Shown here: positions 22,286 to 57,668 of the stretch, in pieces
How positions within the stretch are numbered: position 1 is the first letter of the stretch
Layout of the letters: each line of letters begins with the position of its first letter
Source: Verrucomicrobiales bacterium
GTDB taxonomy: Bacteria > Verrucomicrobiota > Verrucomicrobiia > Verrucomicrobiales > DEV007
Direction of reading: 5' to 3'
NCBI GenBank assembly: GCA_029213195.1
Contig: JARGNI010000013.1
Location: 1 to 64,000, forward strand
Length of the DNA stretch: 64,000 bases
The notes under the pieces: model-generated
Databases searched by the model: none
What the model was told of the DNA's origin: nothing
What the model saw: the letters and a program-made list of their open reading frames with translations, nothing else
Position numbers and translations under genes: made by a program

Positions 22286-22428
22286 CGAAATACCCAGGGA
22301 CCCAGATACCCAACTTTTAAATCTTCAACCTCCCGAACCATCATGAAACCAAGAAACAGCCCCCGCCTTTTCGGATTCCGTATTTCGATCTTCCTTGGGT
22401 ATTTGAGTATTTCGTCCTTCGTCATTCC
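22280..22428. repeat. GACGAA-type intergenic repeat in two inverted copies, overlapping the next gene's signal peptide
   Basis: GAATGACGAA (22280-22289) has its reverse complement at 22418-22427, and AAATACCCA (22288-22296) has its reverse complement within 22395-22404. Read on the minus strand, 22381-22428 is a run of short degenerate GACGAA/GAAATAC units of the kind often seen between genes of Verrucomicrobiota and Planctomycetes. The left copy contains the stop codon of the fusion gene; the right copy lies inside the coding sequence of the next gene and encodes its hydrophobic signal segment. Confidence 0.55.
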
Positions 22429-25400
22429 CGCCTTGGCGGAAACCGCCTGGAACACCCAACTCATTCTTCCTGACTTCTACGCTGAGGGCGCCGGAGTCGG
22501 AGACATCAATGGAGACGGCAACCCCGACATCGCCTACGGCCCCTTCTGGTTTGCCGGTCCCGATTTCCAAACGAAAACCCGCTTCGCCGACGGAGAAGCC
22601 TTCGACGGCGGCACCGGATACTCGGACAGTTTTTTCAGCTTTGTCAGGGACTTCAATGGGGATGGAAAGAGTGATATTCTCGTCTTTGGTTTTCCCGGCA
22701 AATCGGCCCGCCTCTACCTGAACTCCAATGCGGAGCGCTGGGAAATGATCGAAGTCGCCGAACAGGTCGCCAACGAATCGCCTCACCTCATCGATCTCAT
22801 CCCCGGAGGACATCCCGAGATCGTCTGCGCTCGAGAGAAAGCCTACGGCTACTACGAAGCGAGTGAGGACGCGACGAAGCCATGGACATGGCACTCGATC
22901 TCCCCCACCGGGGAAGCCGCCACTCCGTTCGGACACAGTCTTGGTGTCGGTGACATCAATGGGGACGGGCGGGCCGATGTCATCGAGAAGATGCATTGGT
23001 ATGAGCAGCCTGAAAAAGCAGGCACTGGAGAATGGAAGAAGCACAAGTGGGCAATGATTCCCTACGGCGGAGGCGGTGCCCAGATCCTCATCGACGATGT
23101 CGATGGAGATGGCGACAACGACATCATCACTTCGCTCAATGCACATGCCTACGGCATCGCCTGGTTCGAGCAACACGCCCCCGGAAAGTTCGGGCGCCAA
23201 GACATCGTCGGTCAGAGCTCAACTGAGAATCCCTACGGAGTCGCGTTCTCTCAACCCCATGCCCTCGCTCTCGCTGACATGGACGGAGACGGCCGCAAGG
23301 ACTTCGTCACTGGGAAACGTTACTTTGCCCACAAAGGCCGCGATCCCGGCGGCTTACAGGAGCCAGTGCTCTACTGGTTTCGCAACACCGAGACGGAAAA
23401 CGGAATCGACTGGGTCCCCCATCTCGTCGACGACGATTCCGGGGTCGGCGTAGAAGTAAAGGTGACGGATCTCAATGGAGACGAGAAACCTGATGTAATT
23501 ACCAGCAGCAAGAAAGGGCTTATCATCCACACCCAGGTCGCGAGTGGTTCTCACTCGGCCGTCCCAAAGTGGAAACACGGTGAACATCTTCCGCAGGATC
23601 AGTATGGGGTCGACCTTACCGCCGAGGAGGCGAGGGATGAGACCATGGTACCGGAAGGCTTCTCGGTAGACCTTATCACGGCGGAGCCCGACCTGGTCCA
23701 GCCCATCGCGATGACCTTCGACGCTCGCGGTCGCATCTGGGTGATCGAGGGCAACACTTATCCAGTCCGCAAGGAAGGCGGCTTCCACGACGGCAAGGAT
23801 CGCATTCTCATCTTCGAAGACAGTGATGCGGACGGATCCTTCGAAACTCGAAAAGTCTTCGCTGAGAATATCAATCTCGCCAGCGGCATCGAAATTGGAT
23901 TCGGAGGCGTCTATGTCGGCGCCGCCCCTTACCTTCTCTTCTATCCTGACAAAGACCAAAATGACCAACCCGACGGTGAGCCTGAGATCCTACTCGACGG
24001 GTGGGGCTACCAGGACACTCACGAGACTCTGAACGCCTTCACCTGGGGACCGGACGGGTGGCTCTATGGTTGCCACGGCGTTTTCACCCACTCAAAAGTG
24101 GGCAAGCCGGGCACACCTGACGAGGTGCGTCAGCCGATCAATGCGGGTCTGTGGCGTTTTCACCCGGTCTCAAAGGAGTTCCAAGTCTACGCCCATGGTT
24201 CGAGCAATCCATGGGGTGTCGACTTCAATGAACACGGGGACTTTTTCGTCAGTGCGTGCGTCATCCCGCACTTCTATCACCTCAGTCACGGAGGCCGTTA
24301 TCAACGACAGGCTGGCCAGCACTTCGACCCGTTCACGTTCGACGACATCAAGACGATCGCCGACCACGCCCACTACACCGGAGCCTGGCAGGAAGTTCGA
24401 AAAAACGGTTATCGGGCTCCCGAGGACACTTCCGCTCTTGGCGGCGGACACGCCCACTGCGGCCTGGTCTACTACGACGCCCCGGAGTTTCCGAAAGAGT
24501 TTCGTCGGCAGATGTATTTTCACAACCTGCACGGACATCGCATCGTCCGGGAGGATCTCGGTCATGATGGCTCTGGCTACCTCGCGCGACATCGGCCCGA
24601 CTTCCTCCTCAGCAATCACCACGATACCGTGGGTGTGGGAGTGATGCAGGGGCCGGACGGAGCCCTCTATTATTCCGACTGGGTCGACAGCCAGACCTGC
24701 CACCATCGCGATGTTGAGATCTGGGATCGCAGCAATGGCCGAATTTTTCGGGTCCGCTACGGCGATGCCAAGAGCACGGCTCTCGATCTACCCGACCTTG
24801 GCGACACCAAACTTGTCGCATTGCTTGGTCACGAAAACACTTTCCAGGCACGCCAGGCTCAACGGCTTCTCCAGGAGCGTGCTGCGACGGGATCCCTCGA
24901 CAGAGATGCCGTCAGCGCGGCCCTGACTCAATTTGAATCGGATCACTCTGAAGTCGCCCCTCTCCGTCTCCGGGCCCTCTGGACCCGCCATGTCACCGGG
25001 ATATTGAATGGCAAGCAGGTCATGGCCGCTCTCTCCGACCCGAATGAACACATCCGTGGCTGGGCTATTCAGATTGCAATCGCGAACGAAGGCACGATGC
25101 CAAGATTCATCGAGATGGCGAGGTCCGAAGAGTCGCTCGTGGTCCGACGCTACCTCGCATCAAAGCTTCAGACCCTGCCACTCCCACAACGATTGGAGAT
25201 TGCCCGTGGCCTCATCGGGCACAATCGCAGTCAGTGGGATCGCAATATCCCTTACCTCGTTTGGTATGGAATAGCCCCTCTCGTGGAATCGAACCCGAAA
25301 GAGGCTCTGACCCTCATCAACCAGACGGCATGGCCGATGCTCAAGGATTTCATCAATCGGCGGGCCGCGGTTTTCCCAGAAGGCCGAACTGCCGTCACCT

Positions 25401-27013
25401 TCTCACTATCCAATGCTGGCAATCCGAAACAGTTTGTCGACCAAGCGAACCAACTACTGACCGCACTGGCCAGCCTGCCTCCGGTAGAGACACCCGAAAC
25501 CTGGGAAAATGCGAAAGCCAAAGGAATCTCGTTTGGTAAAAACCCGCAAGTGGCGGATGTCCTCAGCCGTCTCGGAACTCGCTTCCGCGATGCGGAATAC
25601 TTTCCGAAATGGCGCAAGATCGCTCGGAATGGAAACGCAAAGGCGTCCGACCGGGTCAATGCAATGGAGTTGCTTACGATCGGACGCGATCCTGAACTTG
25701 GAGTGATCGCCCGCGAGCTGCTCTCCGTTCCTTCCCTCCAAACCGCCGCAATCACCGCGCTACGCCGGGATCCGGGAACAGAAACGGCGAAAGCACTGGT
25801 AGCGGTCCTCCCGGAGCTTTCCCTCAAACAGCGAAATGAAGCGATCAACCTCCTCGGGACGAGGCCGGAAATGGCTCTGGTTCTGCTGGAAGCAGTAGAT
25901 ACCAAGAACGTGGCTTCGTCTCTCGTCTCCCCCGTCATGCTCGATCAGTTCGAGCGATTCGAAGACGAAAAAATCTCTGCGCTGATCGAGAAAAACTGGA
26001 TGCGCGGCGGTGCAGGCATCGACCTCGAACAGCTTCATGCCGCCATCCAAGGCTGGAAGAAGAAGCTCACTCCGAAGGTGCTTTCGCAGGCTGATGTGTC
26101 GAGAGGACGGCAGGCCTACATGATGACCTGCGGCACCTGCCACCAGCTCTTCGGCGAAGGCATCGCCATGGGCCCCGACCTCACAGGATCGAACCGTGCC
26201 GACCTCGGCTACCTTCTCGAGAATGTCCTCGCCCCCAACGCCGTCGTTTCGAAGGAATACCTGCTCAACATCTTCACGATGAAAGACGGATCGACCTTGA
26301 GTGGCATGATCAGCAACGAGACGCCCGAATTCGTTTCTCTTTCCATGCCCGGAGGCACCACCACGGATGTAAAGAAAACCGAGATAAAAAGCCGGCAGGA
26401 ATTGACCCAGAGCCTTATGCCCGCCGGTCTCTTTGACGCGCTTCCGATCGAGCAGGTTGCTGATCTCGTGAAATACCTCGCCAGCCCGAGGCAGGTCCCG
26501 ATGCCCGGTGAAAAAAAACCGGTTCAGAAGGTGAGGGCAGTAGCTCCTTCCGAGAGCGTCATCCGCATCGAGGCCGAGTCGCTCGTAGAAAAATTTTCAC
26601 CGCCCAGGGGAGAACTCCGACCGCAGAAGATGTCCGGCTTCGGCAGCGGCTGGTCCGGTGACTCCCATCTCTGGTGGACCGGAGGAAAACCCGGAGACAT
26701 TCTCACGCTGAAACTGGAAGGGATTGATCCAGGAAACTATGATCTCACTCTGTTCCCGACGACGGCAAAGGACTACGCCACGGTGAAATTCGCGATCAAT
26801 GGCCAACTGCGGGAGGCGGATTTCTACACGGCCGATGTTCTGCCTGGTGATCCAATTCCATTCGAAAGCGTCAATGTCAGTCCCAGCGAACCGCTCCAAA
26901 TCGATATCCATATCACCGGAGCAAATCCGAAAGCGCAGAAACGCTACATGATCGGGATCGATCGGATCGAGCTAAAGAAAATTGAAAAAGCACCCAAGTC
27001 CGCTGGAAAGTAA
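22343..27013 (+). CDS. FG-GAP/VCBS-PVC dehydrogenase-HEAT-cytochrome c-CBM fusion protein
   Basis: 1556 residues, exported (signal FGFRISIFLGYLSISSFVIPALAE, itself derived from a repeat). Order: FG-GAP/VCBS repeats with calcium-binding DxDxDG loops such as GDINGDGNPD and DVDGDGDND (about 45-410); a PVC-type dehydrogenase propeller starting VPEGFSVDLITAEPDL (about 433-800); HEAT-like helices (815-1230); a cytochrome c domain with CGTCH (Cys1263, Cys1266, His1267) in the Haem_bd-PVC arrangement ending MPAGLFDALPIEQVADLVKY; and a C-terminal carbohydrate-binding-like sandwich (about 1395-1545). Probably a periplasmic or surface sugar-oxidising enzyme passing electrons to its own heme. It is 57 bases after the sulfatase fusion and 28 bases before another sulfatase, so likely one transcript. 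Confidence 0.9.
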   Translation: MKPRNSPRLFGFRISIFLGYLSISSFVIPALAETAWNTQLILPDFYAEGAGVGDINGDGNPDIAYGPFWFAGPDFQTKTRFADGEAFDGGTGYSDSFFSFVRDFNGDGKSDILVFGFPGKSARLYLNSNAERWEMIEVAEQVANESPHLIDLIPGGHPEIVCAREKAYGYYEASEDATKPWTWHSISPTGEAATPFGHSLGVGDINGDGRADVIEKMHWYEQPEKAGTGEWKKHKWAMIPYGGGGAQILIDDVDGDGDNDIITSLNAHAYGIAWFEQHAPGKFGRQDIVGQSSTENPYGVAFSQPHALALADMDGDGRKDFVTGKRYFAHKGRDPGGLQEPVLYWFRNTETENGIDWVPHLVDDDSGVGVEVKVTDLNGDEKPDVITSSKKGLIIHTQVASGSHSAVPKWKHGEHLPQDQYGVDLTAEEARDETMVPEGFSVDLITAEPDLVQPIAMTFDARGRIWVIEGNTYPVRKEGGFHDGKDRILIFEDSDADGSFETRKVFAENINLASGIEIGFGGVYVGAAPYLLFYPDKDQNDQPDGEPEILLDGWGYQDTHETLNAFTWGPDGWLYGCHGVFTHSKVGKPGTPDEVRQPINAGLWRFHPVSKEFQVYAHGSSNPWGVDFNEHGDFFVSACVIPHFYHLSHGGRYQRQAGQHFDPFTFDDIKTIADHAHYTGAWQEVRKNGYRAPEDTSALGGGHAHCGLVYYDAPEFPKEFRRQMYFHNLHGHRIVREDLGHDGSGYLARHRPDFLLSNHHDTVGVGVMQGPDGALYYSDWVDSQTCHHRDVEIWDRSNGRIFRVRYGDAKSTALDLPDLGDTKLVALLGHENTFQARQAQRLLQERAATGSLDRDAVSAALTQFESDHSEVAPLRLRALWTRHVTGILNGKQVMAALSDPNEHIRGWAIQIAIANEGTMPRFIEMARSEESLVVRRYLASKLQTLPLPQRLEIARGLIGHNRSQWDRNIPYLVWYGIAPLVESNPKEALTLINQTAWPMLKDFINRRAAVFPEGRTAVTFSLSNAGNPKQFVDQANQLLTALASLPPVETPETWENAKAKGISFGKNPQVADVLSRLGTRFRDAEYFPKWRKIARNGNAKASDRVNAMELLTIGRDPELGVIARELLSVPSLQTAAITALRRDPGTETAKALVAVLPELSLKQRNEAINLLGTRPEMALVLLEAVDTKNVASSLVSPVMLDQFERFEDEKISALIEKNWMRGGAGIDLEQLHAAIQGWKKKLTPKVLSQADVSRGRQAYMMTCGTCHQLFGEGIAMGPDLTGSNRADLGYLLENVLAPNAVVSKEYLLNIFTMKDGSTLSGMISNETPEFVSLSMPGGTTTDVKKTEIKSRQELTQSLMPAGLFDALPIEQVADLVKYLASPRQVPMPGEKKPVQKVRAVAPSESVIRIEAESLVEKFSPPRGELRPQKMSGFGSGWSGDSHLWWTGGKPGDILTLKLEGIDPGNYDLTLFPTTAKDYATVKFAINGQLREADFYTADVLPGDPIPFESVNVSPSEPLQIDIHITGANPKAQKRYMIGIDRIELKKIEKAPKSAGK

Positions 27014-46267: not shown

Positions 46268-46384
46268 TCTCTCGACTCTGCCATCATCAGGGAGCGGATC
46301 AATCCCCATTCTCCCGTTGCATTCTATTCTGGCCTTGGTTTCTTGGTTTTCTCTAGAATCGTTCTCTCTGACTTGCTTGTCCTC

Positions 46385-47443
46385 ATGGAAACCCCGTCCC
46401 CTCCATCACCTGCTGCGCTCCCGGCGCGCCCCCTCGGGAAATCCGGAATCGACGTTCCCATCCTCGGGTTTGGCGGAGCCCCGCTCGGTGACCTCTACGC
46501 AAAACTCGACGAGTCAGTAGCCATCGAAACAATCCTGACCGCAATCCGGCACGGAGTCTCCTTTCTCGACACCTCTCCCCTCTATGGCTTTGGACTCTCC
46601 GAGCACCGCATCGGTGCCGCTCTCCGCCACCTCCCGGAGCAAGAAGTCATTCTCTCGACCAAGGTCGGACGAGTGGCCGATCCGTTACACGCACCCGAAT
46701 CGCGTGGGATTTTTGCCGGGGGACTTCCCCACTCGATGTCTGTCGACTACAGCTACGACGGCGCGATGAGATCCATCGAGCAGTCCCTGTTGCGACTGGG
46801 GAGAGACCACATCGATATCGTCCTGGTCCATGATCTCGACCGCTGGACGCACGGGGACGAGCTCGAACAGCACTACCAGGCTGCCGGGTCGGGCTGTGTC
46901 CCGGCTCTCCGCGATCTCAAGGAGCAGAAGGTGATTCGAGCCTTCGGAGTTGGCGTCAATGAATCCGACTCCGCTCTGCGGTTCTGTAAGGATTTCGAAC
47001 CTGACGTAGTACTCCTCGCAGGACGCTACTCGCTTCTCGAGCAACCCGCGCTCCTCGATCTCCTCCCCCATGCGGCTCGACACGAGATTGGTGTCATTCT
47101 CGGTGGCGTCTTCAACTCGGGCATTCTCGCCACGGGGAATATTCCGGAGGCTCGCTACAACTATGGCGAACCCAGTGAGGAGATTCGCAACCGGGTCTCA
47201 TCCATCGAAGCAGTCTGCCGGGAATTCTCCATTCCGCTGAGGCGAGCAGCCCTCCAGTTCGTATTTGGTCACCCCTCCGTCTCCTCGGTCGTCCTCGGCG
47301 CAGTCCACGCCAGGGAAATCGTCGAGAATTGCGCCGAGTTCCGAACCGCCATCCCGACAGCGTTCTGGACTCGGTTGTGCGATGAGAACTTGATTTCGGA
47401 GGACGCTCCCATCCCACAAGATTCTTCCCATGATTCGCATTGA
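46385..47443 (+). CDS. Aldo/keto reductase, L-fucose (D-threo-aldose) dehydrogenase-like
   Basis: 352 residues from ATG 46385. The AKR catalytic tetrad is complete: Asp62, Tyr67 (DTSPLYGFGLSE), Lys93 (STKVGR) and His149 (VLVHDLDRW). The PLG...GFGGAPLG N-terminus and the DLDRWTHG segment match the D-threo-aldose 1-dehydrogenase/L-fucose dehydrogenase branch, which oxidises L-fucose to L-fucono-1,5-lactone with NAD(P). The overlap of 14 bases with the downstream lactonase, followed by a FucU homologue, supports that assignment. It begins a three-gene plus-strand operon. Confidence 0.85.
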   Translation: METPSPPSPAALPARPLGKSGIDVPILGFGGAPLGDLYAKLDESVAIETILTAIRHGVSFLDTSPLYGFGLSEHRIGAALRHLPEQEVILSTKVGRVADPLHAPESRGIFAGGLPHSMSVDYSYDGAMRSIEQSLLRLGRDHIDIVLVHDLDRWTHGDELEQHYQAAGSGCVPALRDLKEQKVIRAFGVGVNESDSALRFCKDFEPDVVLLAGRYSLLEQPALLDLLPHAARHEIGVILGGVFNSGILATGNIPEARYNYGEPSEEIRNRVSSIEAVCREFSIPLRRAALQFVFGHPSVSSVVLGAVHAREIVENCAEFRTAIPTAFWTRLCDENLISEDAPIPQDSSHDSH

Positions 47444-48257
47444 TTCGCACCAGCATTTCTGGAAACCGGAGCGCGGCGACTACGGTTGGCTCACGCCCGA
47501 ACTCCCCACACTCTACCGTGACTTTCTTCCTGGTGACCTTCGCCCTTCTCTCGATAAACTCGGAGTCGAGAAAACGATCCTTGTCCAAGCCGCCCCTACC
47601 GTCGAAGAGACCCGATTCCTGCTTGAGCTGGCAAAAGAAAACGAATGGATTGCAGGGGTCGTGGGGTGGGTCGATTTCGAAGATCCGGACACCACCACCT
47701 TGCTATCGGAACTCGCGAAGGATCCCCACCTTGTGGGTATCCGTCCCATGGTCCAGGACCTGCCGGACGACGAATGGATTTCTCGCCCCGAGCACGCTCC
47801 GGTTTTCGAGGCCCTGATCGAGCAGCAGCTCGTGTTCGATGCCTTGATCAAACCGCATCAACTCGAGCCAGCCCTGACCATGATTCGGAGACACCCGGAT
47901 CTACGCGTCGTGATCGATCATGCCGCCAAGCCCACACTGCGTGATGGAGTCGATTCGAGCTACTTCAATGGGATTGCGGCTCTCGCGCAGGAGCCTCAGG
48001 TCACCTGCAAACTTTCGGGACTGGTCACGGAGGCGCGGGAGGACTGGACTCTTGAAGATCTCCAACCCATCTTCGATCATCTCCTCCGCGAATTCGGACC
48101 AGATCGGCTTCTCTGGGGATCCGACTGGCCTGTCCTGACCCTCGCCGGTGACTACCATGGCTGGTGGCAGGCAACACAGGAACTGATCGCCGCCCTCAAC
48201 GAGGAACAGCAGAATGCCATTCTCGGAGGCACCGCGGAAAAGGTGTATCTATCCTAA
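47430..48257 (+). CDS. Amidohydrolase, probable L-fucono-1,5-lactonase
   Basis: 275 residues, amidohydrolase_2 (TIM-barrel) family. Metal-binding start DSHQHFW (His7, His9), VIDHAAKP, and the C-terminal LLWGSDWPV with its catalytic Asp. This is the family of L-fuconolactonases and L-rhamnonolactonases that open sugar lactones in non-phosphorylative pathways. The position directly after the fucose dehydrogenase-like gene and before FucU points to L-fuconolactone as substrate (inference). Cytoplasmic. Confidence 0.87.
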   Translation: MIRIDSHQHFWKPERGDYGWLTPELPTLYRDFLPGDLRPSLDKLGVEKTILVQAAPTVEETRFLLELAKENEWIAGVVGWVDFEDPDTTTLLSELAKDPHLVGIRPMVQDLPDDEWISRPEHAPVFEALIEQQLVFDALIKPHQLEPALTMIRRHPDLRVVIDHAAKPTLRDGVDSSYFNGIAALAQEPQVTCKLSGLVTEAREDWTLEDLQPIFDHLLREFGPDRLLWGSDWPVLTLAGDYHGWWQATQELIAALNEEQQNAILGGTAEKVYLS

Positions 48258-48285
48258 CCAACTCACCCCAATTCAATCCAATCCC

Positions 48286-48732
48286 ATGCTCAAGGGAATC
48301 AACCCTCTCCTCTCCGCAGACGTGCTTCATCTTCTCGCCTCGATGGGGCATGGAGATGATGTCGCTGTCGTCGATGCCAATCACCCTGCCGAAGCGATCG
48401 CCCGCTCCACCACGAGTGGAAAACTGATCCGACTCCCGGGAGTGGGCATGGGAGAGTTCATCACAGCCCTGCTCACGGTTTTCCCGCTCGATGGCTACGT
48501 TCCGGATCCTGTCCGCTGCATGGAGCCTGTCCCGGGCGACGATCCCCATCCCGATGTGCAGACCGAGATCGCAAGCGTGCTCGAGCAGAGCAGCGAAACG
48601 GCTCCCCTCACCCCAGTGGAGCGATTTGCGTTTTACGAAGCCGGAAAGAATGCCTTTGGCGTCATCCAATTGGGTGACGCCAGGCCCTACGGCTGCTTTC
48701 TCTTTCGAAAGGGTGTCCTCTCTCCCGATTGA
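48286..48732 (+). CDS. fucU: L-fucose mutarotase (RbsD/FucU family)
   Basis: 148 residues from ATG 48286; a longer start at 48214 would overlap the lactonase by 44 bases and adds a non-family N-terminus. The start MLKGINPLLSADVLHLLASM, the active-site patch GHGDDVAVVDANHPA (His22, Asp30) and the end RPYGCFLFRKGV are those of FucU, which converts alpha- and beta-L-fucose. Together with the dehydrogenase and lactonase it gives the first steps of oxidative L-fucose catabolism. No fuconate dehydratase, 2-keto-3-deoxy-fuconate dehydrogenase or transporter is nearby. Confidence 0.9.
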   Translation: MLKGINPLLSADVLHLLASMGHGDDVAVVDANHPAEAIARSTTSGKLIRLPGVGMGEFITALLTVFPLDGYVPDPVRCMEPVPGDDPHPDVQTEIASVLEQSSETAPLTPVERFAFYEAGKNAFGVIQLGDARPYGCFLFRKGVLSPD

Positions 48733-48745
48733 AGGAGCCTCGGGC

Positions 48746-50440
48746 TCAGTCTTTCGAATCCACTTCGGAAGATCCGAAGTCGAGTTCATCCGAAGACTCT
48801 CCCGGATCACTTTCGCCTTCCGCAACGGTCTCCGTCGAGTCGTCCCGATAACTCGCCACGACAAGATTACTGAGATACTGGTCCGGTTTATCGATCGCCT
48901 CGCCGTTCAAGAGAAAGGAATCACGCCCGGTGTTCTTCTGGATCAGCTTCAGACCGAACTGAAAATCCCGAAATTTCTCCTCGCAAACTGAGAGAACGCT
49001 CTGGTTGCGCTCTTCCGCGAGGGCACCCAGCCGCTGGATCGCTTCCGTTTCGAAATTCAACCGAACTCCGTGCTCCTGCTCAAATTTTCGACGAAACGTA
49101 GCCAACTCGCCGACGAGTCGGAAATCTCCGACCGGAGCCGCTTCGAGCAGCAGGTTGCCGAGACGCCCGGCCGGATTGGTCACCAGTTCCCCATCGATCT
49201 CCAATTCTGAGATCGTCGTCCCCGGAAGCTCGAACTTGAAGTGCCGCAGCAGCTTCTCACAAACGGTCATCAATCCTCGTGCTCCAGTTTTCTCCTCGGC
49301 CGCTTTCTCAGAGATCTCGCGGAGCGCTTCGTCGGAAAATTCGGCGTGAATGCCAAAGGCTTCGAACTCCCGCTCGTACTGTCGGATCAGGCTGCCCTCC
49401 GAATTTTTCATGATGTCGAAGAGGTCGTTCGCTTCGAGATGGTCGCAAACCACACGGACAGGGAGACGCCCGATGAACTCGGCTTCGAAACCGAACTCGA
49501 TGAAGTCCTGCGTCCCCAGCGACTCCTGGAGATCCGATTCATCCATCGCGGTCACGCTGTCCGCTCCGAATCCGATCGCCCCCTGCCGCAGCCTCTTCTC
49601 GACGATTTTCTCCAAACCCGAAAAGGCTCCCGAAACGATAAAGAGGATATGGCGGGTATTGATTGTATCCTTGGACGGCTTTCCACCCCGGCTCATCTCG
49701 AACATGGCCTGCATCTGAGACTGGATGTCCTGGGGATTTCGGACCGCGACCTCGGTTTCTTCCATGAGTTTCAGGAGGGTCGTCTGGACACCGCGACCAC
49801 TGACATCCCGTCCGGAAACGTTGGTAGCCCCGGCGATCTTGTCGATTTCATCGATGTAGACGATTCCATACTCGGCCAGTTCGACATCGCCATCGGCCTT
49901 TCTGACCAGTTCTCGGACGAGATCATCGACGTCGGCTCCGACATACCCGGTCTCCGAGAACTTCGTAGCGTCGGCTTTGACAAAAGGAACCCCAATGAGA
50001 TCGGCGATGTGCTTGACGAGGTAGGTCTTTCCTACACCCGTAGGTCCGACCACGATGACATTCTGCTTCGCAAACTCGATCTCCTCGGCCTTGGCCGGAT
50101 CGTCCTTTTCGAGACGACGGAGATACTTGGCGTGATTGTAGTGATCGCAGACGGCAATGGAGAGGGCCTTTTTCGCCTCGTCCTGGCGGATCACGAAGCG
50201 GTCAAGGTGGTCCTTGATCTGTCGGGGAAGGAGGTCGAATTCAAAAATGTCTCCATCGCGATCCCGCAGATCGTGGTCTTCTCCGGAAGTCTTTTCTTCC
50301 GTCGCAAAAGGGTTCGCCCCCTCACCCATGGTCGAGAAGGAAACCTGGTCTCCGAAATTGGATTTCAGGAAATCGGAGAGCTTCCGTGAAATTTCCTGGG
50401 GATCCGGAATGGAAGGATGATCGTCGTCTTTGTCGGGCAT
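48746..50440 (-). CDS. ClpX-like AAA+ unfoldase lacking the zinc domain, with duplicated small domain
   Basis: 564 residues against about 424 for ClpX. The zinc-binding N-domain is absent; residues 1-65 are acidic and probably disordered. The AAA+ core has Walker A GPTGVGKT (132-139), pore loop GYVG (165-168), Walker B VYIDEID (194-200), an RDVSGRGVQ loop and an IGF tripeptide (289-291), which in ClpX docks on ClpP. The first small domain (about 355-432) keeps sensor 2 (TGARGL, Arg388). A second, similar unit follows (about 448-528; FE...G....F...A...VCE...R.F.F.L) in which the GARG motif has become NQSV. An acidic tail ends the protein. It probably unfolds proteins for ClpP or a paralogue; adaptors must differ from those of ClpX. 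Confidence 0.88.
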   Translation of the reverse strand: MPDKDDDHPSIPDPQEISRKLSDFLKSNFGDQVSFSTMGEGANPFATEEKTSGEDHDLRDRDGDIFEFDLLPRQIKDHLDRFVIRQDEAKKALSIAVCDHYNHAKYLRRLEKDDPAKAEEIEFAKQNVIVVGPTGVGKTYLVKHIADLIGVPFVKADATKFSETGYVGADVDDLVRELVRKADGDVELAEYGIVYIDEIDKIAGATNVSGRDVSGRGVQTTLLKLMEETEVAVRNPQDIQSQMQAMFEMSRGGKPSKDTINTRHILFIVSGAFSGLEKIVEKRLRQGAIGFGADSVTAMDESDLQESLGTQDFIEFGFEAEFIGRLPVRVVCDHLEANDLFDIMKNSEGSLIRQYEREFEAFGIHAEFSDEALREISEKAAEEKTGARGLMTVCEKLLRHFKFELPGTTISELEIDGELVTNPAGRLGNLLLEAAPVGDFRLVGELATFRRKFEQEHGVRLNFETEAIQRLGALAEERNQSVLSVCEEKFRDFQFGLKLIQKNTGRDSFLLNGEAIDKPDQYLSNLVVASYRDDSTETVAEGESDPGESSDELDFGSSEVDSKD

Positions 50441-50611: not shown

Positions 50612-53047
50612 CTAGAGGTTTTCCGGTTTCAGCTCCATCAGGCCCTCCCAGACGAGAGCAAACTCGTCATCGACTGCGGAGATTTCATCGGCCAGGCGTT
50701 CCGCCTTTTTCAGCAAGCCGTTGACGAGAGAAAAATAAACGAGTCGCTTCCGCTCTTCGGCCGTTTCTTCGCTCACGGGAGGCATCAGTCCCTCGGCTGC
50801 TTCCGTCATCCAATCCGGGTCGAACAGTTCAATCTCCACTTCGTTGGGTCCAAAACCCAGATCAAGAGTAAGTGTGGAAAGAGTCGCCGCGGTGATACGG
50901 GCCTCCAGCGGGACGCCTTCCCGGCGGCGGATTACTCCTTCATATTCACCTTCCGAAAGGAGTTTGGAAAAGAAGGGAAGAAACTGATCGGCATAGGTAT
51001 ATCCCTCGAGAAGTCCTGCTTTCCATTTCTCCCCCGCCTTGGTCTCGGGCTCGTAGGCATTCACCTTGGCAATCGCCGCTGAAAAAAGAAACGTCGCCTG
51101 ATATTGGTTTAAATCCGAAATGAGCCCCTGCATCACCACTTTCTCCTTTTCCTCCTCCGGGCTTAGTGTTGTGGGAGCGGGGACCGGATCCTTGACTGGA
51201 TCGGTGGGAGGATTCGTCGTCATGCTCCTTTCCTCCTGCTCCGCTCGCATTCGCTCCTCCGCCTCTTTCTTTTCCAACTCACGAATCGTATCGATGCGCT
51301 CGATCCGCTCCTGGATTGTCTTCCGAAGCGCCCCTCGCGTCTTCACCTCGGAAAGCGCCGCCTGCAGGGTTGCTTTCTGGGTGCCAAGGGCACGGCTCGA
51401 CTCCCGGTTCGGATTGGGCAAGGAAGAGAAAATCTGCCAGTCTCTCTGATACTCGGAGACCTGCGCCTGCAACGGCTCCATCCACTCGTAGCCACTGGGG
51501 ATGGAGCTCTCTTCAAATCGCTTCAACAACTCCAATCCGTTTTCAAACTGTCCCAGTTGCCAGTTCTTCAAACCGGCAACGAGAAACCCGACCACTTCGA
51601 GGGATTCACTCTCGAAGGCTTCCTCCGGCTCCAAGACCGGGAGGGGATCCGAGAGGACTCGGGAAGTCTCCTTCATGAAACTGACGACCTCTCCGATACC
51701 AGATTCACCTTCGGGATTGATCGCTTCGATCAGGGCGAAACTCTGTCGAGCATCCTCTTCATTGCCGAGGAACAATCTCGTCGTTCCCTGGAAGAAGAGA
51801 CTCCACATTCGGATCGAAGGAGAGAGTGTCGTTTCCACGACAAGGGAATCGAAAATCGGCTCAGCATTCCTGAAGTTGCCCTCCGAAATCAGCTGACGTC
51901 CCTCGAGGAACTGCGCCACTTTCTTGTTGTCTCCGGCACTGATGACACGGTCATCGATGACGATTCCCACCCCACCTGGATCTTCCTCCTGCTGCCGATC
52001 ACGGAAAACATTCAAGGCGACAACGACAGCAAGAAGCGCGGAACATACACCGAGGGCGATAACAGCCTTGCGATTGACCGGCTTCTTTCGACGAGAACTC
52101 TTCGTCACCCCGAACTGGCGCTTCTGAATCGTCTCGATGTGGTCCAGGATATCGGCGTAAGACTGCGGACGACTGACCGCATCATACGACATCATTTTCT
52201 CTACCAATCGCAGGGTAGACTTGGAAAGACCCGGAACGAGACTTTTCAGATCCAGATCCTGCTTCTTGATGACCTTCAGCTCTTCCAGGGAAGAAGTATT
52301 CGCATCAAAAGGAGGCGAGCCTGCAAGGGCATGGAACAACGTCGCGCCGAGACTGTAGATATCGCCGAGATAGGTATCCTTTTCTCCCTCGAGTTTCTCG
52401 GGTGGAACATAGAAAGGCGTTGCCCAGAGATCTTCCGACTCGTCTTCGCCGCCCTGCTGAACTGCAAGACCGAAGTCCACAAGCTTCGCCGTACCATCTT
52501 CCGTCACGAGCATGTTCCCCGGCTTGATATCACGGTGGATCAAGCCTTCTTCCTGGGCCGCGGCGAGACCACTCGTCACATCGTGGGCAATATTGAGGAC
52601 ATCCGACTCGGAAAGGCTTCCCTTGTTGGCGATCATCTCCTCCAGGCTGGTCGCTCGGACCAATTCCATCGCGATGAAGAAGTACCCCTGCTCCTGTCCC
52701 ACCGTGTAGACCTTGACCACATTGGGGTGCAGGATGGAAGCGGTGAGCTTGGCCTCCCTTTCGAACATGGAAGTCAGCGCACTGTCCCGGCTCAATTCCG
52801 GATGTAGAACCTTGAGAGCCACCTCTCGACCCAAGTGGGTGTCCACCGCGCGGAATACCTGGCTCATTCCGCCCTCTCCGAGAATTCCCGTGAGGTGATA
52901 CTGCCCCATCAGGGTCTTCATTCGGACCGAAGTGCCACAACCAGGACACTCGATCTTGGCGAACGGAGGCAGCGCAGTGACATCGACCGACTGCGAACAC
53001 TCGGGACACTGGTTGATGACAGAAGTCTGTTCGGAGGATCCTTCCAT
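50612..53047 (-). CDS. Membrane Ser/Thr protein kinase with N-terminal zinc ribbon
   Basis: 811 residues from ATG 53047; the longer open frame upstream to 53881 lies antisense to kdsA and is rejected. A CPEC...CPGCG zinc ribbon (Cys14, 17, 34, 37) precedes a Hanks-type kinase (about 50-310) with GEGGMSQVF, Lys79, HRDIKPGN (Asp173) and DFG (Asp191); all key residues are present. A membrane segment (about 328-348) leads to a large external part with helical/TPR-like character and a Pro/Thr-rich stretch near 620-660. Likely a signalling kinase with an extracytoplasmic sensor. The zinc ribbon before the kinase is uncommon. The ClpX-like gene lies 171 bases downstream on the same strand. Confidence 0.93.
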   Translation of the reverse strand: MEGSSEQTSVINQCPECSQSVDVTALPPFAKIECPGCGTSVRMKTLMGQYHLTGILGEGGMSQVFRAVDTHLGREVALKVLHPELSRDSALTSMFEREAKLTASILHPNVVKVYTVGQEQGYFFIAMELVRATSLEEMIANKGSLSESDVLNIAHDVTSGLAAAQEEGLIHRDIKPGNMLVTEDGTAKLVDFGLAVQQGGEDESEDLWATPFYVPPEKLEGEKDTYLGDIYSLGATLFHALAGSPPFDANTSSLEELKVIKKQDLDLKSLVPGLSKSTLRLVEKMMSYDAVSRPQSYADILDHIETIQKRQFGVTKSSRRKKPVNRKAVIALGVCSALLAVVVALNVFRDRQQEEDPGGVGIVIDDRVISAGDNKKVAQFLEGRQLISEGNFRNAEPIFDSLVVETTLSPSIRMWSLFFQGTTRLFLGNEEDARQSFALIEAINPEGESGIGEVVSFMKETSRVLSDPLPVLEPEEAFESESLEVVGFLVAGLKNWQLGQFENGLELLKRFEESSIPSGYEWMEPLQAQVSEYQRDWQIFSSLPNPNRESSRALGTQKATLQAALSEVKTRGALRKTIQERIERIDTIRELEKKEAEERMRAEQEERSMTTNPPTDPVKDPVPAPTTLSPEEEKEKVVMQGLISDLNQYQATFLFSAAIAKVNAYEPETKAGEKWKAGLLEGYTYADQFLPFFSKLLSEGEYEGVIRRREGVPLEARITAATLSTLTLDLGFGPNEVEIELFDPDWMTEAAEGLMPPVSEETAEERKRLVYFSLVNGLLKKAERLADEISAVDDEFALVWEGLMELKPENL

Positions 53048-53278
53048 AGAAGAGAGTTGCGCTTCCCAACGGAAACGGCCCGCCAGTGTATCGCCACGAA
53101 ATCTCAGGTCCAGACAAATTGCCCCATCGCGAGAGAAAAACAGCATCCGGAAGCCGCCAGTATAGTCTGGCCCGATCGGATCAGTTTTCCGTATTTCTTC
53201 AGAATCCCTGATATTCACGAATCGAGGGCAACGAAGTTGCCACGGAGGCTTGGTGGCGCTAGGCTGCGGGTAGAATCT

Positions 53279-54118
53279 ATGGCGACATCTTTTGATCCAG
53301 TAGCTCTTGGCCCCTACTCCCTCGGTGGAGAACGTCCCGTCTTCATTCTCGGCCCGTGTGTCATCGAATCCGAAGAGTTCCTTCTCGATATCGCTCCGCG
53401 AATCCAGGAGATCGCGCAGTCGGTGGATATCGATTTCGTCTTCAAGGCGAGCTACGACAAGGCCAATCGGAGTTCCATCGACTCCTTTCGAGGAATGGAT
53501 TGCCTCGAGGGTTGCCAATTGTTGCACCGAGTCGGACAGGAACTGGGAGTCCCGGTGACGACCGACATCCACAATGAAGAGCAGGCCGCGATCGCTGGTG
53601 AGTGGATCGACATCCTCCAGATCCCCGCATTTCTCTGCCGCCAAACCGATCTGCTGGAAGCGGCCGCGAAGACCGGCCGGGTCGTGAATGTGAAAAAAGG
53701 CCAATTTCTTGCGCCATGGGACGTTAAGAATATTGCGGAGAAGCTCGAGGCGTTCGGATGTGAGCAGTATTTCATCACGGAACGCGGGAACAGTTTTGGC
53801 TACAACGCCTTGGTCGCGGATATGAGATCGATACCCTGGATTCAAGAAGACGGCCTTCGGATCGTCTTCGACGCGACCCACTCGGTGCAGCGCCCCGGCG
53901 GCTTGGGGAGCTCCAGTGGAGGAGATGGGCGTCTTGCCCCCATTCTCGCGCGGTCAGCCATGGCAGCCGGATGCGACGGAATTTTCATGGAAACCCATCC
54001 CGATCCCTCCAAGGCACTCAGCGATGGGCCGAATCAGGTTCCGCTTGATCAACTCGCCGAGACCCTATCGATGCTGAAAAAAATCTATCACCTCGTGCGA
54101 GAATCTTCGGCCTCATGA
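53279..54118 (+). CDS. kdsA: 3-deoxy-8-phosphooctulonate synthase (KDO-8-P synthase)
   Basis: 279 residues, the usual length. Condenses phosphoenolpyruvate with arabinose 5-phosphate to make KDO-8-phosphate for lipid A-core LPS. Family segments visible: FILGPCVIES, FKASYDKANRSS, TDIHNEEQA, LQIPAFLCRQTDLL, VNVKKGQFLAPWD, ERGNSFGYN, DATHSVQRPGG and the C-terminal METHPDPSKALSDGPN. ATG 53279 is chosen over longer starts that overlap the divergent kinase gene. It overlaps the next gene by ATGA and heads the LPS transport cluster. Confidence 0.97.
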   Translation: MATSFDPVALGPYSLGGERPVFILGPCVIESEEFLLDIAPRIQEIAQSVDIDFVFKASYDKANRSSIDSFRGMDCLEGCQLLHRVGQELGVPVTTDIHNEEQAAIAGEWIDILQIPAFLCRQTDLLEAAAKTGRVVNVKKGQFLAPWDVKNIAEKLEAFGCEQYFITERGNSFGYNALVADMRSIPWIQEDGLRIVFDATHSVQRPGGLGSSSGGDGRLAPILARSAMAAGCDGIFMETHPDPSKALSDGPNQVPLDQLAETLSMLKKIYHLVRESSAS

Positions 54119-54663
54119 CGCGACTCCGATCCATCGCTCTTGCCGTCCTCCTGTCCGGCGCAGTTTTCTCTCTCTATTCCGATGAGAGCGAGGAAGAATC
54201 GGCTACGGAGGAACAGAAAGAAGCGATGGCAAACTCCATCCTCCAGAACGCGTTGCCCGATGAACTGACAACCATCTTCCCCGTCGGCCGAACCTTTTCC
54301 GGAGTGGCAATTCCTTCGTACGAAGAAGAAAAACTCCAATCCGTAATGCGGGCCGCGACGATCACCCGGATCGACGAACGCTATCTCGATCTCACCGAGC
54401 TCGTCATCACCATCTATTCGGGGGGAGAAGAGAGCCAAACCACGATCTTCATGGAGGAGGCCGCCTACGACCTTGCACTCGGCACCCTTCGCAGCAAGAC
54501 CCCTGCCCGTATCGAACAGGAACAATTCACCATGACAGGCGAGACGATGACTTTTGACACCCGTGCTCAAGTCAGCCGGCTCGTCGGGAACGTCAAAGTC
54601 ATCATCCCCGACGCCAGTGCCCTAGCGCCGACGATGGGATTTCCCATTCCCACCACCCAGTAA
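54115..54663 (+). CDS. lptC: Exported LptC/OstA-like protein, probable LPS transport component
   Basis: 182 residues with an N-terminal signal or anchor (MTRLRSIALAVLLSGAVFSLYS). The C-terminal two thirds show alternating strands (ITRIDERYLDLTELVITIY, FTMTGETMTFDTRAQVSRLVG) like the beta-jellyroll of LptC/LptA. Similarity to E. coli LptC is not strong enough to see directly; the call leans on position between kdsA and lptA, the LptC slot in many Gram-negatives, and on the ATGA overlap with kdsA. It would bridge the inner-membrane LptB complex and LptA. Confidence 0.65.
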   Translation: MTRLRSIALAVLLSGAVFSLYSDESEEESATEEQKEAMANSILQNALPDELTTIFPVGRTFSGVAIPSYEEEKLQSVMRAATITRIDERYLDLTELVITIYSGGEESQTTIFMEEAAYDLALGTLRSKTPARIEQEQFTMTGETMTFDTRAQVSRLVGNVKVIIPDASALAPTMGFPIPTTQ

Positions 54664-54675
54664 CCCCGAATTCCT

Positions 54676-55866
54676 ATGAGAAAATTCCTTAGCCTTTCTC
54701 TTATCACCATCACCCTTGTCACTGTCCCCGTTTCCCGGGCACAGGATGCCGTCGAGGAAGTTGAGTCCGGAGCCCGCAAGATCCTCTCGGATCCTCGTCT
54801 CGATGGATTGATCCGCTCCGCACAAGACGACCCGGAAGCGATGGTCGAAGATCTCCGGAACGATCCCGAAGCTGCCGTGCGCAAGGCAACCCAGATTTTC
54901 CAGGAGAACAAGAAGAACATCGATCCCAGTGTGATCGACACTCCGGAAAACCGTGAAAAGGCCAAGGCGCTCTCCGCAACAGCCCTGACGCGAGCCAGTG
55001 AACTCGCCAAGGAGAAGGCAGCAGAGGCAGTCCCCCCACCCTCGGAGAAGGAGAAGGAAAAGGTCCCCGCCACTCGCTCCATCGCAACGACCTCCGAAGT
55101 GGCCACTCCGGTTGCCATGCCTGTCGAAGGCGGTGACGCTCCGATTGCGACGAATACGGATACTGCCCCCGTGATCCAGAGCACCGAAGTGACGCCACTC
55201 ACCAATTCAGCCCCCACCGAGACTCAGATTCCGGACTCGCCCCACCTCACCAATGCCGAGGTTCCAGCCCCGCGTCCTCTGGCCCCGAAATACGATCTCA
55301 CCAAAGAGAACTCGATCAAACCGTCCAGTTCGGGAAGTCCCGGAGACGACTACATGGAGATCAACGCTCGCGAGTCGATCATGGACAGCAAACGAGGCGT
55401 CCTCACCTTCCTGGGAAATGTGGTGGTCGATCATCCCGACTACGACCTGAAATGCGAAAAGCTCGAGATCCAGCTCACGGGGTCGGTCGGAGCCCCTTCG
55501 GGTGGCGGCAGTGAAGATGCGGCGATCAAGCGCGCCATTGCGACCGGGGGAATGGTTGAGATCAAGCGAGTCGGCGAGGGTGGCAAGGTCCAGGTCGCCC
55601 TGGCGAGAAAGGCAGACTACGACGCTCTCAAACAGGAATTCATCCTTTCTGGCGGCCCCCCCTACATCCAGGACGGAAACAACTATGTGAAAACCAATTC
55701 CCAGGATTCCCGAATCGTCATGCGCGGAAACGGGACCTACGAAATCCTCGGATCCGATGCCGGTTCCACGGGTAGAAGTACGATCCGTGTCCGCGTTCCC
55801 AAGAGCAATACGGGAGATGTCGGAATCGGTGGCGGGCTGGGAAGCGGCGTCGACCAGCTTCGCTAG
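54676..55866 (+). CDS. lptA: LptA/OstA-family periplasmic LPS transport protein
   Basis: 396 residues, about twice the E. coli protein. Signal peptide MRKFLSLSLITITLVTVPVSRA. Residues about 25-215 form a charged then Pro/Ala/Thr-rich linker; the OstA domain (about 222-385) has the typical INARESIMDSKRGVLTFLG and VVDHPDYDLKCEKLEI pattern followed by a KRAIATGGMVEIKR strand. It would form the periplasmic filament that carries LPS to the outer membrane. The long linker is unusual for LptA. Twelve bases separate it from the LptC-like gene. Confidence 0.85.
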   Translation: MRKFLSLSLITITLVTVPVSRAQDAVEEVESGARKILSDPRLDGLIRSAQDDPEAMVEDLRNDPEAAVRKATQIFQENKKNIDPSVIDTPENREKAKALSATALTRASELAKEKAAEAVPPPSEKEKEKVPATRSIATTSEVATPVAMPVEGGDAPIATNTDTAPVIQSTEVTPLTNSAPTETQIPDSPHLTNAEVPAPRPLAPKYDLTKENSIKPSSSGSPGDDYMEINARESIMDSKRGVLTFLGNVVVDHPDYDLKCEKLEIQLTGSVGAPSGGGSEDAAIKRAIATGGMVEIKRVGEGGKVQVALARKADYDALKQEFILSGGPPYIQDGNNYVKTNSQDSRIVMRGNGTYEILGSDAGSTGRSTIRVRVPKSNTGDVGIGGGLGSGVDQLR

Positions 55867-55898
55867 AAAGTCTTTCCAGACCTCTTGTTTCTCGCACT

Positions 55899-57668
55899 AT
55901 GAGCTATTCTGATGACGCAGACGATCTGCGTGAGATCTTCGACAAGGACCTCGAAACCACTGTGTCCGGATACTCCGAAGAGATTCTCGAGTCCCCTCGC
56001 AAGCCAGCCACACCTTCGGCTCTTCCCGCCAAGGGCGAAGCACGTCGAATTCCAGAGAAGAAACCACAACCGGCATCGCCAGCGAAGCAGCAAGCGGCTC
56101 CTCCCACCTCTCGAAAGCCAGCGGCACCACAAGCTCCCCCTTCCAAGCAGGCTTCTCCTGCGAGGCCCCAAGAACCTTCCAAAAAGGCCGCGCCTCCAGC
56201 CGAACCAACGAAGAAGAAAGCTGCTTCGCCGCGGCAGTCCTCTACCAAATCGGCACCTAACGCAAAACCTGCTCCTGCCCAGGAGCTTCCCAAGCCACAG
56301 GAATCCCAGCCATCCGCGGCGTCGAAGCCACCATCCGACCCGCTTCCGGTGATCAAGAAGCCAGTCAAACTGCGCCCCCCCAGCCACGTCGAACCGCATC
56401 CTCATTCGACTCCTGATCCGAAACCTGAGCCAGCCCCCACTTCGAAACCAGTGCAGACGGCTCCAACGACCGATCTTCCCGAGCCGACCCCCGCTGAAGA
56501 TCTTCTTTCACTCGACGAAGACGAACTCTTCCCTTTCGACGAGGCGACGACTCCCGATTTTTCCGAGGACGCAGTGCTTTCCTTCGACAGCGAACTGGAC
56601 CCGCCGGAGTCTTTCTCGCTTCCTCCTATCGGAGATCCTTCTCCCCAGTCACAGGAAGCGAAAGAGTCCCTTCCCTCACCAAAGAGAAATCCCGTCACGC
56701 CCCAACCGGAACCGACTGCGAAGCCGAGCCCGGAACCGAAGCAGAAGGAAGAGAGCCAGAAAGATCATCTACCCGCACCGGTAGAAGAGCCACAAAAGCG
56801 TCCCGCTTCTCCCGCAGTCTACGAATCGAGCTCGGATCGCGAAGAAATCGCTCCCCCCGCCTCGCTCGAGAAACGCGCCGCCATCGCCGCGGCAGCGGTC
56901 ACCACGAGTGAATCCGGCGCGGAAAAACCGGAGCCCAGTTCTGGGGAAATGCTTCTCCGGACGGAGGGTCTCGTGAAAGTCTATGATGGTCGGACCGTCG
57001 TCAACGGAGTCGAAATCACGGTTCGCAAAGGCGAAATCGTCGGATTATTGGGGCCGAACGGAGCAGGAAAGACGACCAGTTTCTACATGATCGTAGGACT
57101 CGTCCCTCCCAATGGTGGTCATGTCAGCTTCAATGATTCGGACGTCACGACCATGCCGATGTATCAGCGCGCCCGCCTCGGCATGGGGTATCTCCCCCAG
57201 GAGGAATCGATCTTTCGCAAACTCACGGTCGAAGAGAACATCATGGCCGTCATGGAAACGCTTTCGATTCCTCGACGTGAAAAGGTCGAGCGATGCAACG
57301 AGTTGCTCGAACGTTTCAGCATCACCCACATCCGAAAAAACGTCGCCCTGACTTGTTCGGGGGGAGAAAAACGCCGTCTCACCATCGCTCGATCGCTGGT
57401 CACCGAACCGAGCCTGCTGATGTTGGACGAACCCTTTTCCGGTGTCGACCCGATCGCGGTCAATGAGATCCAGACCATCGTCGAAGATCTTCGGAAGTCC
57501 GGTCTCGCCATTCTCATCACCGACCACAACGCCCGTCAGACCCTCGAACTGGTGGATCGCGCCTACCTCATCTACGAAGGACGCGTCCTCCGCGAAGGCT
57601 CACGAGATTTTCTCATCAACGATCCCGTCAGCCGAGAACTCTACCTCGGGGACCGATTTACGATGTGA
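55899..57668 (+). CDS. lptB: LptB ATPase with a 350-residue Pro-rich N-terminal extension
   Basis: 589 residues; LptB is normally about 240. Residues 351-589 are a complete LptB: Walker A GPNGAGKT, Q-loop LPQEESIFRKLTV, signature CSGGEKRR, Walker B LLMLDEPFSGVDPIA and the switch DHNARQTLELVD. The extension is acidic at first (SYSDDADDLREIFDKD), then Lys/Pro/Ala/Ser-rich and low-complexity, probably disordered, with an acidic LLSLDEDELFPFDEA patch near 205. Codon use is the same as in the ATPase part and there is no stop, so it seems translated. An internal ATG at 56949 with GGGGAA just upstream could also produce a normal-length LptB. Confidence 0.9.
   Translation: MSYSDDADDLREIFDKDLETTVSGYSEEILESPRKPATPSALPAKGEARRIPEKKPQPASPAKQQAAPPTSRKPAAPQAPPSKQASPARPQEPSKKAAPPAEPTKKKAASPRQSSTKSAPNAKPAPAQELPKPQESQPSAASKPPSDPLPVIKKPVKLRPPSHVEPHPHSTPDPKPEPAPTSKPVQTAPTTDLPEPTPAEDLLSLDEDELFPFDEATTPDFSEDAVLSFDSELDPPESFSLPPIGDPSPQSQEAKESLPSPKRNPVTPQPEPTAKPSPEPKQKEESQKDHLPAPVEEPQKRPASPAVYESSSDREEIAPPASLEKRAAIAAAAVTTSESGAEKPEPSSGEMLLRTEGLVKVYDGRTVVNGVEITVRKGEIVGLLGPNGAGKTTSFYMIVGLVPPNGGHVSFNDSDVTTMPMYQRARLGMGYLPQEESIFRKLTVEENIMAVMETLSIPRREKVERCNELLERFSITHIRKNVALTCSGGEKRRLTIARSLVTEPSLLMLDEPFSGVDPIAVNEIQTIVEDLRKSGLAILITDHNARQTLELVDRAYLIYEGRVLREGSRDFLINDPVSRELYLGDRFTM

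Follow-up and report, generated by a model that had tools for sequence, protein, structure and literature searches.

A ClpX-like AAA+ unfoldase with a second small domain in Verrucomicrobiota

Introduction

The specificity of AAA+ unfoldases usually comes from added domains, either N-terminal or inserted. HslU (ClpY) has one small domain, the C-terminus of which points to the peptidase side, and ClpX works without ClpP in some of its tasks. The available part of PMC12383707 describes a GF-type loop by which canonical ClpX docks on ClpP and a small domain that packs against the neighbouring large domain, and presents the RKH loop as unique to the ClpX family. Among the titles and abstract openings listed for open-licence papers in PubMed Central, none describes a ClpX with two small domains; the accessible text of PMC12283558 makes no mention of clpX or clpP, nor do the accessible parts of PMC3444138 and PMC2474590 mention Clp.

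Here, we describe ClpX2, a protein encoded in a 64,000-nucleotide stretch of DNA from a Verrucomicrobiales bacterium (hereafter the window). ClpX2 is a real and conserved variant of the ClpX kind, undescribed as far as the literature was searched, and seems to be a second motor of long standing that destroys or remodels proteins and has yet to be characterised. The motor's own mobile lid has been duplicated, the copy stripped of its nucleotide sensor and the arrangement kept phylum-wide, with two classical client-receiving parts absent.

Overall architecture

The open reading frame runs on the minus strand from an ATG at 50440 to a stop at 48746 and encodes 564 amino acids, as an earlier note on this DNA had placed it. 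Behind a ClpX-type AAA+ module (residues 67-433), which ends in a first small domain (D1), lies a further AAA+ small domain (D2; residues 440-537). The features are as follows, with the evidence in parentheses.

48746 to 50440, minus strand: ClpX-like AAA+ unfoldase 'ClpX2' with two small domains, 564 amino acids (open reading frame; Pfam, NCBIfam and PDB matches; relatives).
50243 to 50440, minus strand: N-terminal 66 residues, a predicted helix at 14-29 and a disordered stretch, with no zinc-binding domain (AlphaFold; zinc pattern in 0 of 156 relatives).
49391 to 50242, minus strand: AAA+ large domain, residues 67-350 (Pfam AAA_2 at 126-328; VIA-align to ClpX chains over 60-435).
50024 to 50047, minus strand: Walker A GPTGVGKT, residues 132-139 (GPTG[VC]GKT or GPSGVGKT in 156 of 156 relatives).
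49937 to 49948, minus strand: pore-1 loop GYVG, residues 165-168 (GY[VIM]G in 156 of 156 relatives).
49847 to 49864, minus strand: Walker B IVYIDE, residues 193-198 (a hydrophobic stretch ending in DE among the variants listed).
49661 to 49747, minus strand: replacement of the RKH loop, residues 232-260 (helix 239-250 in the AlphaFold model; D238 and Q242 invariant).
49568 to 49576, minus strand: IGF tripeptide, presumed ClpP-docking loop, residues 289-291 ([ILMV]GF in 154 of 156 relatives).
49466 to 49468, minus strand: arginine finger R325 (F[IV]GR motif in 156 of 156 relatives).
49142 to 49390, minus strand: first small domain D1, residues 351-433 (Pfam ClpB_D2-small at 351-398; AlphaFold elements).
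49277 to 49279, minus strand: sensor-2 arginine R388 in TGARG of D1 (TGAR[GAS] in 156 of 156 relatives).
48830 to 49123, minus strand: second small domain D2, residues 440-537, without sensor 2 (hhalign; D2-only search; AlphaFold; VIA-align; GAR in 0 of 156 relatives).
48746 to 48829, minus strand: acidic disordered C-terminal tail, residues 538-564, and the stop codon (pLDDT below 50; varies among relatives).

A search of PDB sequences matched the protein to solved ClpX chains (E of about 1e-72). The NCBIfam ClpX models cover residues 71-422 only and fall just short of their cut-offs (345.1 bits against 359 and 317.7 against 370.75); all of the ClpX2 sequences met in a search of 75 ClpX2 genomes are likewise below the cut-off. 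Residues 423-564 gave no match in Pfam, NCBIfam or the PDB sequences.

All structure predictions of ClpX2 are of monomers. The AlphaFold model of the full-length protein (mean pLDDT 82.9) has a normal ClpX module followed by a second compact unit. D1 consists of helix 351-361, strand 365-368, helices 370-383 and 388-404, strand 412-415 and helices 417-421 and 423-433. The elements of D2 follow in the same order: helix 440-457, strand 460-463, helices 465-478, 482-489 and 493-504, strand 508-511 and helices 513-517 and 519-537. The last helix of D1 and the first helix of D2 are separated by only about six residues. Comparison of the model using VIA-align gave Z scores as high as 37 for ClpX and of about 28 for HslU and, among the matches listed, the ClpX and HslU entries align only to residues 60-435.

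Comparison with canonical ClpX and HslU

Motifs were compared across 156 relatives, comprising 114 sequences (140 translated loci less L002 and identical copies) and 42 further non-copies, and across 17 canonical ClpX proteins of these bacteria (18 loci were tried and L230 was dropped). The Walker motifs, the pore-1 loop, the arginine finger and the sensor 2 of D1 are kept across the 156 relatives, and D197 and E198 of Walker B are invariant in an alignment of 79 of the sequences. The docking tripeptide [ILMV]GF was read in 154 relatives and takes the form IGF in 133. One of the two others has an X residue at this place; the other, a second copy in its genome (G173), truly lacks the tripeptide and also lacks D2. 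The corresponding loop in the canonical proteins is LGF in eight, MGF in seven and VGF in one, with none found in the remaining one.

The client-receiving parts differ. A zinc pattern of the form C..C(15-25)C..C occurs in none of the 156 relatives as against 17 of the 17 canonical proteins, and the counts for the RKH loop are the same. The segment that replaces the RKH loop carries D238 and Q242 in every relative and is predicted to form a helix at 239-250. With the motor and docking motifs kept and the RKH loop and zinc domain absent, the pattern suggests that the ClpP side has been retained and the client side rebuilt. The earlier note had correctly reported the GYVG loop, the IGF tripeptide at 289-291 and the missing zinc domain, and had thought ClpP docking possible, which the conservation of the tripeptide makes plausible; the loss of the RKH loop had escaped it.

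ClpX2 thus shares with ClpX the AAA+ module at 67-433, both Walker motifs, GYVG, the arginine finger, sensor 2 and the GF docking loop. It differs in lacking the zinc domain, in having a helix-bearing segment in place of the RKH loop, in the added small domain and in missing the NCBIfam cut-offs. Because two defining parts of ClpX, the zinc domain and the RKH loop, are absent, the protein should not be filed as ClpX; nevertheless, it very probably works like ClpX.

HslU has the same AAA+ module fold and also has no zinc domain, but its NCBIfam model matches the window protein in three pieces with 196.8 bits against a cut-off of 362.45, and ClpX2 possesses the GF loop. The peptidase partner HslV was sought through the Proteasome family at an E value of 0.001: four of the nine genomes searched have a match and the window's own genome has none, an absence that is provisional at 95% genome completeness. 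The score and the failure to find HslV rule out membership of HslU. The ClpB_D2-small family (PF10431) recognizes D1 (28 bits against a cut-off of 21.9), and D2 has a related fold, but D2 of the window protein has no Pfam match and no sensor-2 motif.

A further set of ClpX-like proteins was seen in some genomes of the same genus (G004:C165, G008:C394, G023:C129 and G029:C15). These have open frames of 432-453 amino acids with 34-38% identity to the window protein and are perhaps a third ClpX type.

The second small domain

The earlier note had aligned residues 448-528 by eye with the small domain at 355-432. Profiles of D1 (335-436) and D2 (440-533) built from the 114 non-identical relatives align in hhalign with a probability of 98.9%, an E value of 2.9e-17 and a score of 90.5 over 79 columns. 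Control scores were 19.5 or less for 100 column-shuffled D2 profiles, 14.8 for the reversed D2 profile and 9.5-11.0 for two further stretches of ClpX2. With only the D2 profile as the query, a six-frame search of 288 genomes found D2 in 75 of them, and in 60 of these D1 of the same protein was also matched (in the window protein at an E value of 4.7e-6). Beyond these proteins, matches were confined to a ClpX2 copy without D2 (G173:C42) and one canonical ClpX (G059:C135, recognized by its location).

D2 folded alone by AlphaFold gave a pLDDT of 84.5. All 50 of the VIA-align matches listed for this model are ClpX or HslU (Z of 6.8-9.0), and most fall on the small domain (ClpX residues 316-411 or thereabouts). 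The best, to residues 320-408 of ClpX (PDB code 8yd0; Z of 9.0, r.m.s.d. of 2.2 over 82 residues), gives the predicted unit the small-domain fold. Z scores of 7-9 are modest by themselves; it is the specificity of the matches together with the sequence result that makes the assignment firm. A Foldseek search with D2 alone returned nothing at an E value of 0.001, the best match being to ClpX (E of 0.017, probability 1.00).

A chance resemblance, or a different fold for residues 448-528, has some points in its favour. Pfam assigns no family to the window protein's D2 and detects the small-domain family in only five of 70 members (best E of 0.053), and a search of PDB sequences with the D2 profile ranks DnaK (E of 0.0067), which we take to be noise, ahead of ClpX (E of 0.19). 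The gap between the hhalign score and those of the shuffled profiles, the return of D1 by the genome-wide D2-only search, and the D2-only model with its fold match to ClpX and HslU small domains rule this explanation out, and we give it practically no weight. D2 is a real second copy of the AAA+ small domain.

The sensor-2 GAR motif is found in D2 of none of the 156 relatives, in agreement with the loss reported in the earlier note. Its description of D2 as degenerate holds for this nucleotide-sensing motif and fails otherwise, as D2 carries strongly conserved positions peculiar to it and, like D1, experiences purifying selection. The statement that doubled small domains are foreign to known ClpX and HslU is consistent with the 17 canonical ClpX proteins, all of which end without D2, and with the alignment limits of the listed PDB entries given above.

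Origin and maintenance of D2

The D2 profile scores highest against D1 of its own protein (87.7-90.5), then against the small domain of canonical ClpX (34.9) and that of ClpB/ClpC (21.1). This closeness to its own D1 points to an origin of D2 by tandem duplication of D1 within the ClpX2 lineage. In a tree built from the cores of 66 ClpX2 and 17 canonical ClpX proteins, the two groups separate with full support. Two sequences without D2 fall inside the D2-bearing group: L206, which has a long branch and an unsure placement, and L260. Their nested position indicates that D2 is old in the family and has been lost at least in L260.

L260 (G215:C110:5800-8600) is a ClpX2 of 457 amino acids that ends after D1 and keeps IGF, such that the docking tripeptide and D2 are not strictly tied. 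L206 (G173:C42:145000-159000) is a second, diverged ClpX2 copy in its genome, with 425 amino acids and neither D2 nor the GF tripeptide; it is possibly a ClpP-free form.

D2 was present in 154 of the 156 relatives recovered by the homologue search that the earlier note had proposed. Nonsynonymous change in D2 is far below synonymous change in 14 of 14 close pairs, as it is in D1, which marks purifying selection on D2. This selection, the near-universal presence of D2 and the nesting of the sequences without it rule out a duplication that is recent or in decay. Conserved residues of D2 that are absent from D1 are C486, F490, D492, G496, G505, S530 and Y531.

D2 may be mainly a structural or regulatory lid, packed against D1 or against the next subunit's large domain. 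It would then alter the stability of the ring or its turnover of ATP and would bind no clients. Such a role accords with the small-domain fold of D2 and the short link to D1, and the small domain of ClpX packs on its neighbour's large domain in the account available from PMC12383707. The lack of sensor 2 and the conserved residues peculiar to D2 suggest instead a partner of its own, but do not disprove the idea, which is compatible with other readings of ClpP dependence. We regard it as a reasonable possibility that falls short of an even chance.

Distribution and co-occurrence with ClpX

Of the 288 genomes sampled from the phylum, 76 contain ClpX2 relatives (E of 1e-75 or better), and these cover 57 of 152 genera; the gene is cut by a contig end in G233 and split over two contigs in G050. 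Among the 20 genomes listed without a match, 18 belong to one genus (f2 g4), and a further 192 without a match lie beyond those listed. A scan of genome contigs with short peptides of the window protein gave 125 relatives, of which 80 were kept; all 80 have titles of Verrucomicrobia type and, by these titles, the family is spread across Verrucomicrobiota. Viral contigs yielded 56 pattern matches, none encoding a ClpX2 relative, and D2 had no match in plasmids or phages.

The question raised earlier of whether canonical clpX and clpP exist elsewhere in the genome can be answered in the affirmative. The window's own genome (G000) encodes one canonical ClpX with a zinc domain (on G000:C42), about 40% identical to ClpX2, and one ClpP. 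The two genes lie on different contigs, and clpP adjoins an open reading frame that reads as trigger-factor-like from its translation. The other 75 ClpX2 genomes were searched together, and canonical ClpX exceeds the cut-off in 72 of them. The exceptions are G085, G106 and G103, the last being in 90 contigs, so that the absence of ClpX there is unsure.

G085 and G106, each a 0.92-Mb genome in one contig, keep ClpX2 and have no ClpX in the genome. Each has one ClpP with intact Ser-His-Asp motifs. The clpX gene is on the same piece as clpP in seven of the seven other clpP loci compared and is gone from around clpP in these two genomes; the linkage is not universal, being split over contigs in the window's own genome. 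G106, at least, also encodes a ClpC-type ATPase that carries an LGF loop, in addition to one of ClpB type. This ClpC could alone explain why ClpP has been retained, and the retention is therefore no proof that ClpX2 is a partner of ClpP.

The frequent co-occurrence would suit mixed rings of ClpX2 and canonical ClpX, in which ClpX2 modulates ClpX. The identity of only about 40% between the two proteins in the window's own genome and the existence of two single-contig genomes with ClpX2 and no ClpX speak against such rings, which we consider very improbable.

Functional implications

We propose that ClpX2 is a second ClpP-dependent unfoldase in which the client-receiving side has been rebuilt and the extra lid, inert towards nucleotide, probably binds adaptors or clients, a reading that we hold with evenly divided confidence. 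The protein, a descendant of the ClpX line, would form hexamers that unfold proteins at the expense of ATP. Its ring may dock on ClpP, which in the window's own genome would be the same single ClpP that serves ClpX, with clients threaded through the GYVG pore loops. As both client-receiving parts of ClpX have been replaced, ClpX2 would take a different set of clients. D2 would sit beside D1 on the rim of the ring, bind no nucleotide and offer a platform for adaptors or clients. Among the roles suggested earlier for the extra domain (capping the ring, binding adaptors or controlling ATP turnover), capping of the substrate entrance is in our view the least likely, since the C-terminus of the HslU small domain faces the peptidase side.

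The ring might also work alone as a ClpP-independent protein remodeller, its GF loop kept for another partner. This would fit the absence of the RKH and zinc parts, the presence in most ClpX2 genomes of a canonical ClpX that can serve ClpP, and the conserved gene neighbours, among which no clp gene occurs in the 40 neighbourhoods compared. It fits poorly with a docking tripeptide maintained in nearly all relatives across a wide range of identity, the same loop being the one that docks ClpP in canonical ClpX according to the part of PMC12383707 available. On balance, we find this reading doubtful.

Should the proposed ClpP-dependent unfoldase indeed bind ClpP, then these bacteria would run two parallel ClpX-type machines, the reduced genomes would represent a natural swap of ClpX for ClpX2, and both the role of the lid domain and the choice of clients by ClpX would become directly testable. 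A bolder form of the proposal, and in our estimation an unlikely one, is a distinct AAA+ machine found throughout the phylum and built as a 'double-lid' ring of six motor and six inert lids, in which a second belt at the ClpP junction would select clients or gate docking and which could replace ClpX, as in the reduced genomes.

Gene neighbourhood

The upstream neighbour of clpX2 encodes a protein kinase.

50612 to 53047, minus strand: protein kinase gene, 811 amino acids from the chosen ATG (Pfam Pkinase, E of 1.1e-48).

The kinase gene lies on the same strand, 171 bases upstream of clpX2, and its translation reads as having two CPxC pairs ahead of the kinase domain. Many close relatives share this arrangement: in 40 of the 65 loci with more than 3 kb of upstream sequence, the end of a kinase gene lies no more than 1.5 kb upstream of clpX2. 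Among 40 more distant neighbourhoods, a kinase match over nearly the whole length is found in L204 only. We read the kinase as a clade-level neighbour and not as part of the ClpX2 machine, though ClpX2 may be phosphorylated. The distant neighbourhoods contain an HU-like gene in 11 of 40, a HisS-like gene in eight and a UbiE-like gene in seven, the names resting on a reading of the sequences. A functional link via conserved neighbours is not borne out by the neighbourhoods compared: the neighbours differ between families and none points to clpP or a client.

Elsewhere in the window, aldo/keto reductase, amidohydrolase and RbsD/FucU genes stand in a row at 46343-48732 (plus strand), convergent with clpX2, and resemble a fucose-type sugar cluster. 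DAHP-synthase-family, LptC-like, LptA/LptD_N-like and ABC ATPase genes at 52835-57668 (plus strand) resemble a lipopolysaccharide export cluster. Two very long adjacent open reading frames, of 1724 and 1556 amino acids, occupy 17111-27013 (plus strand).
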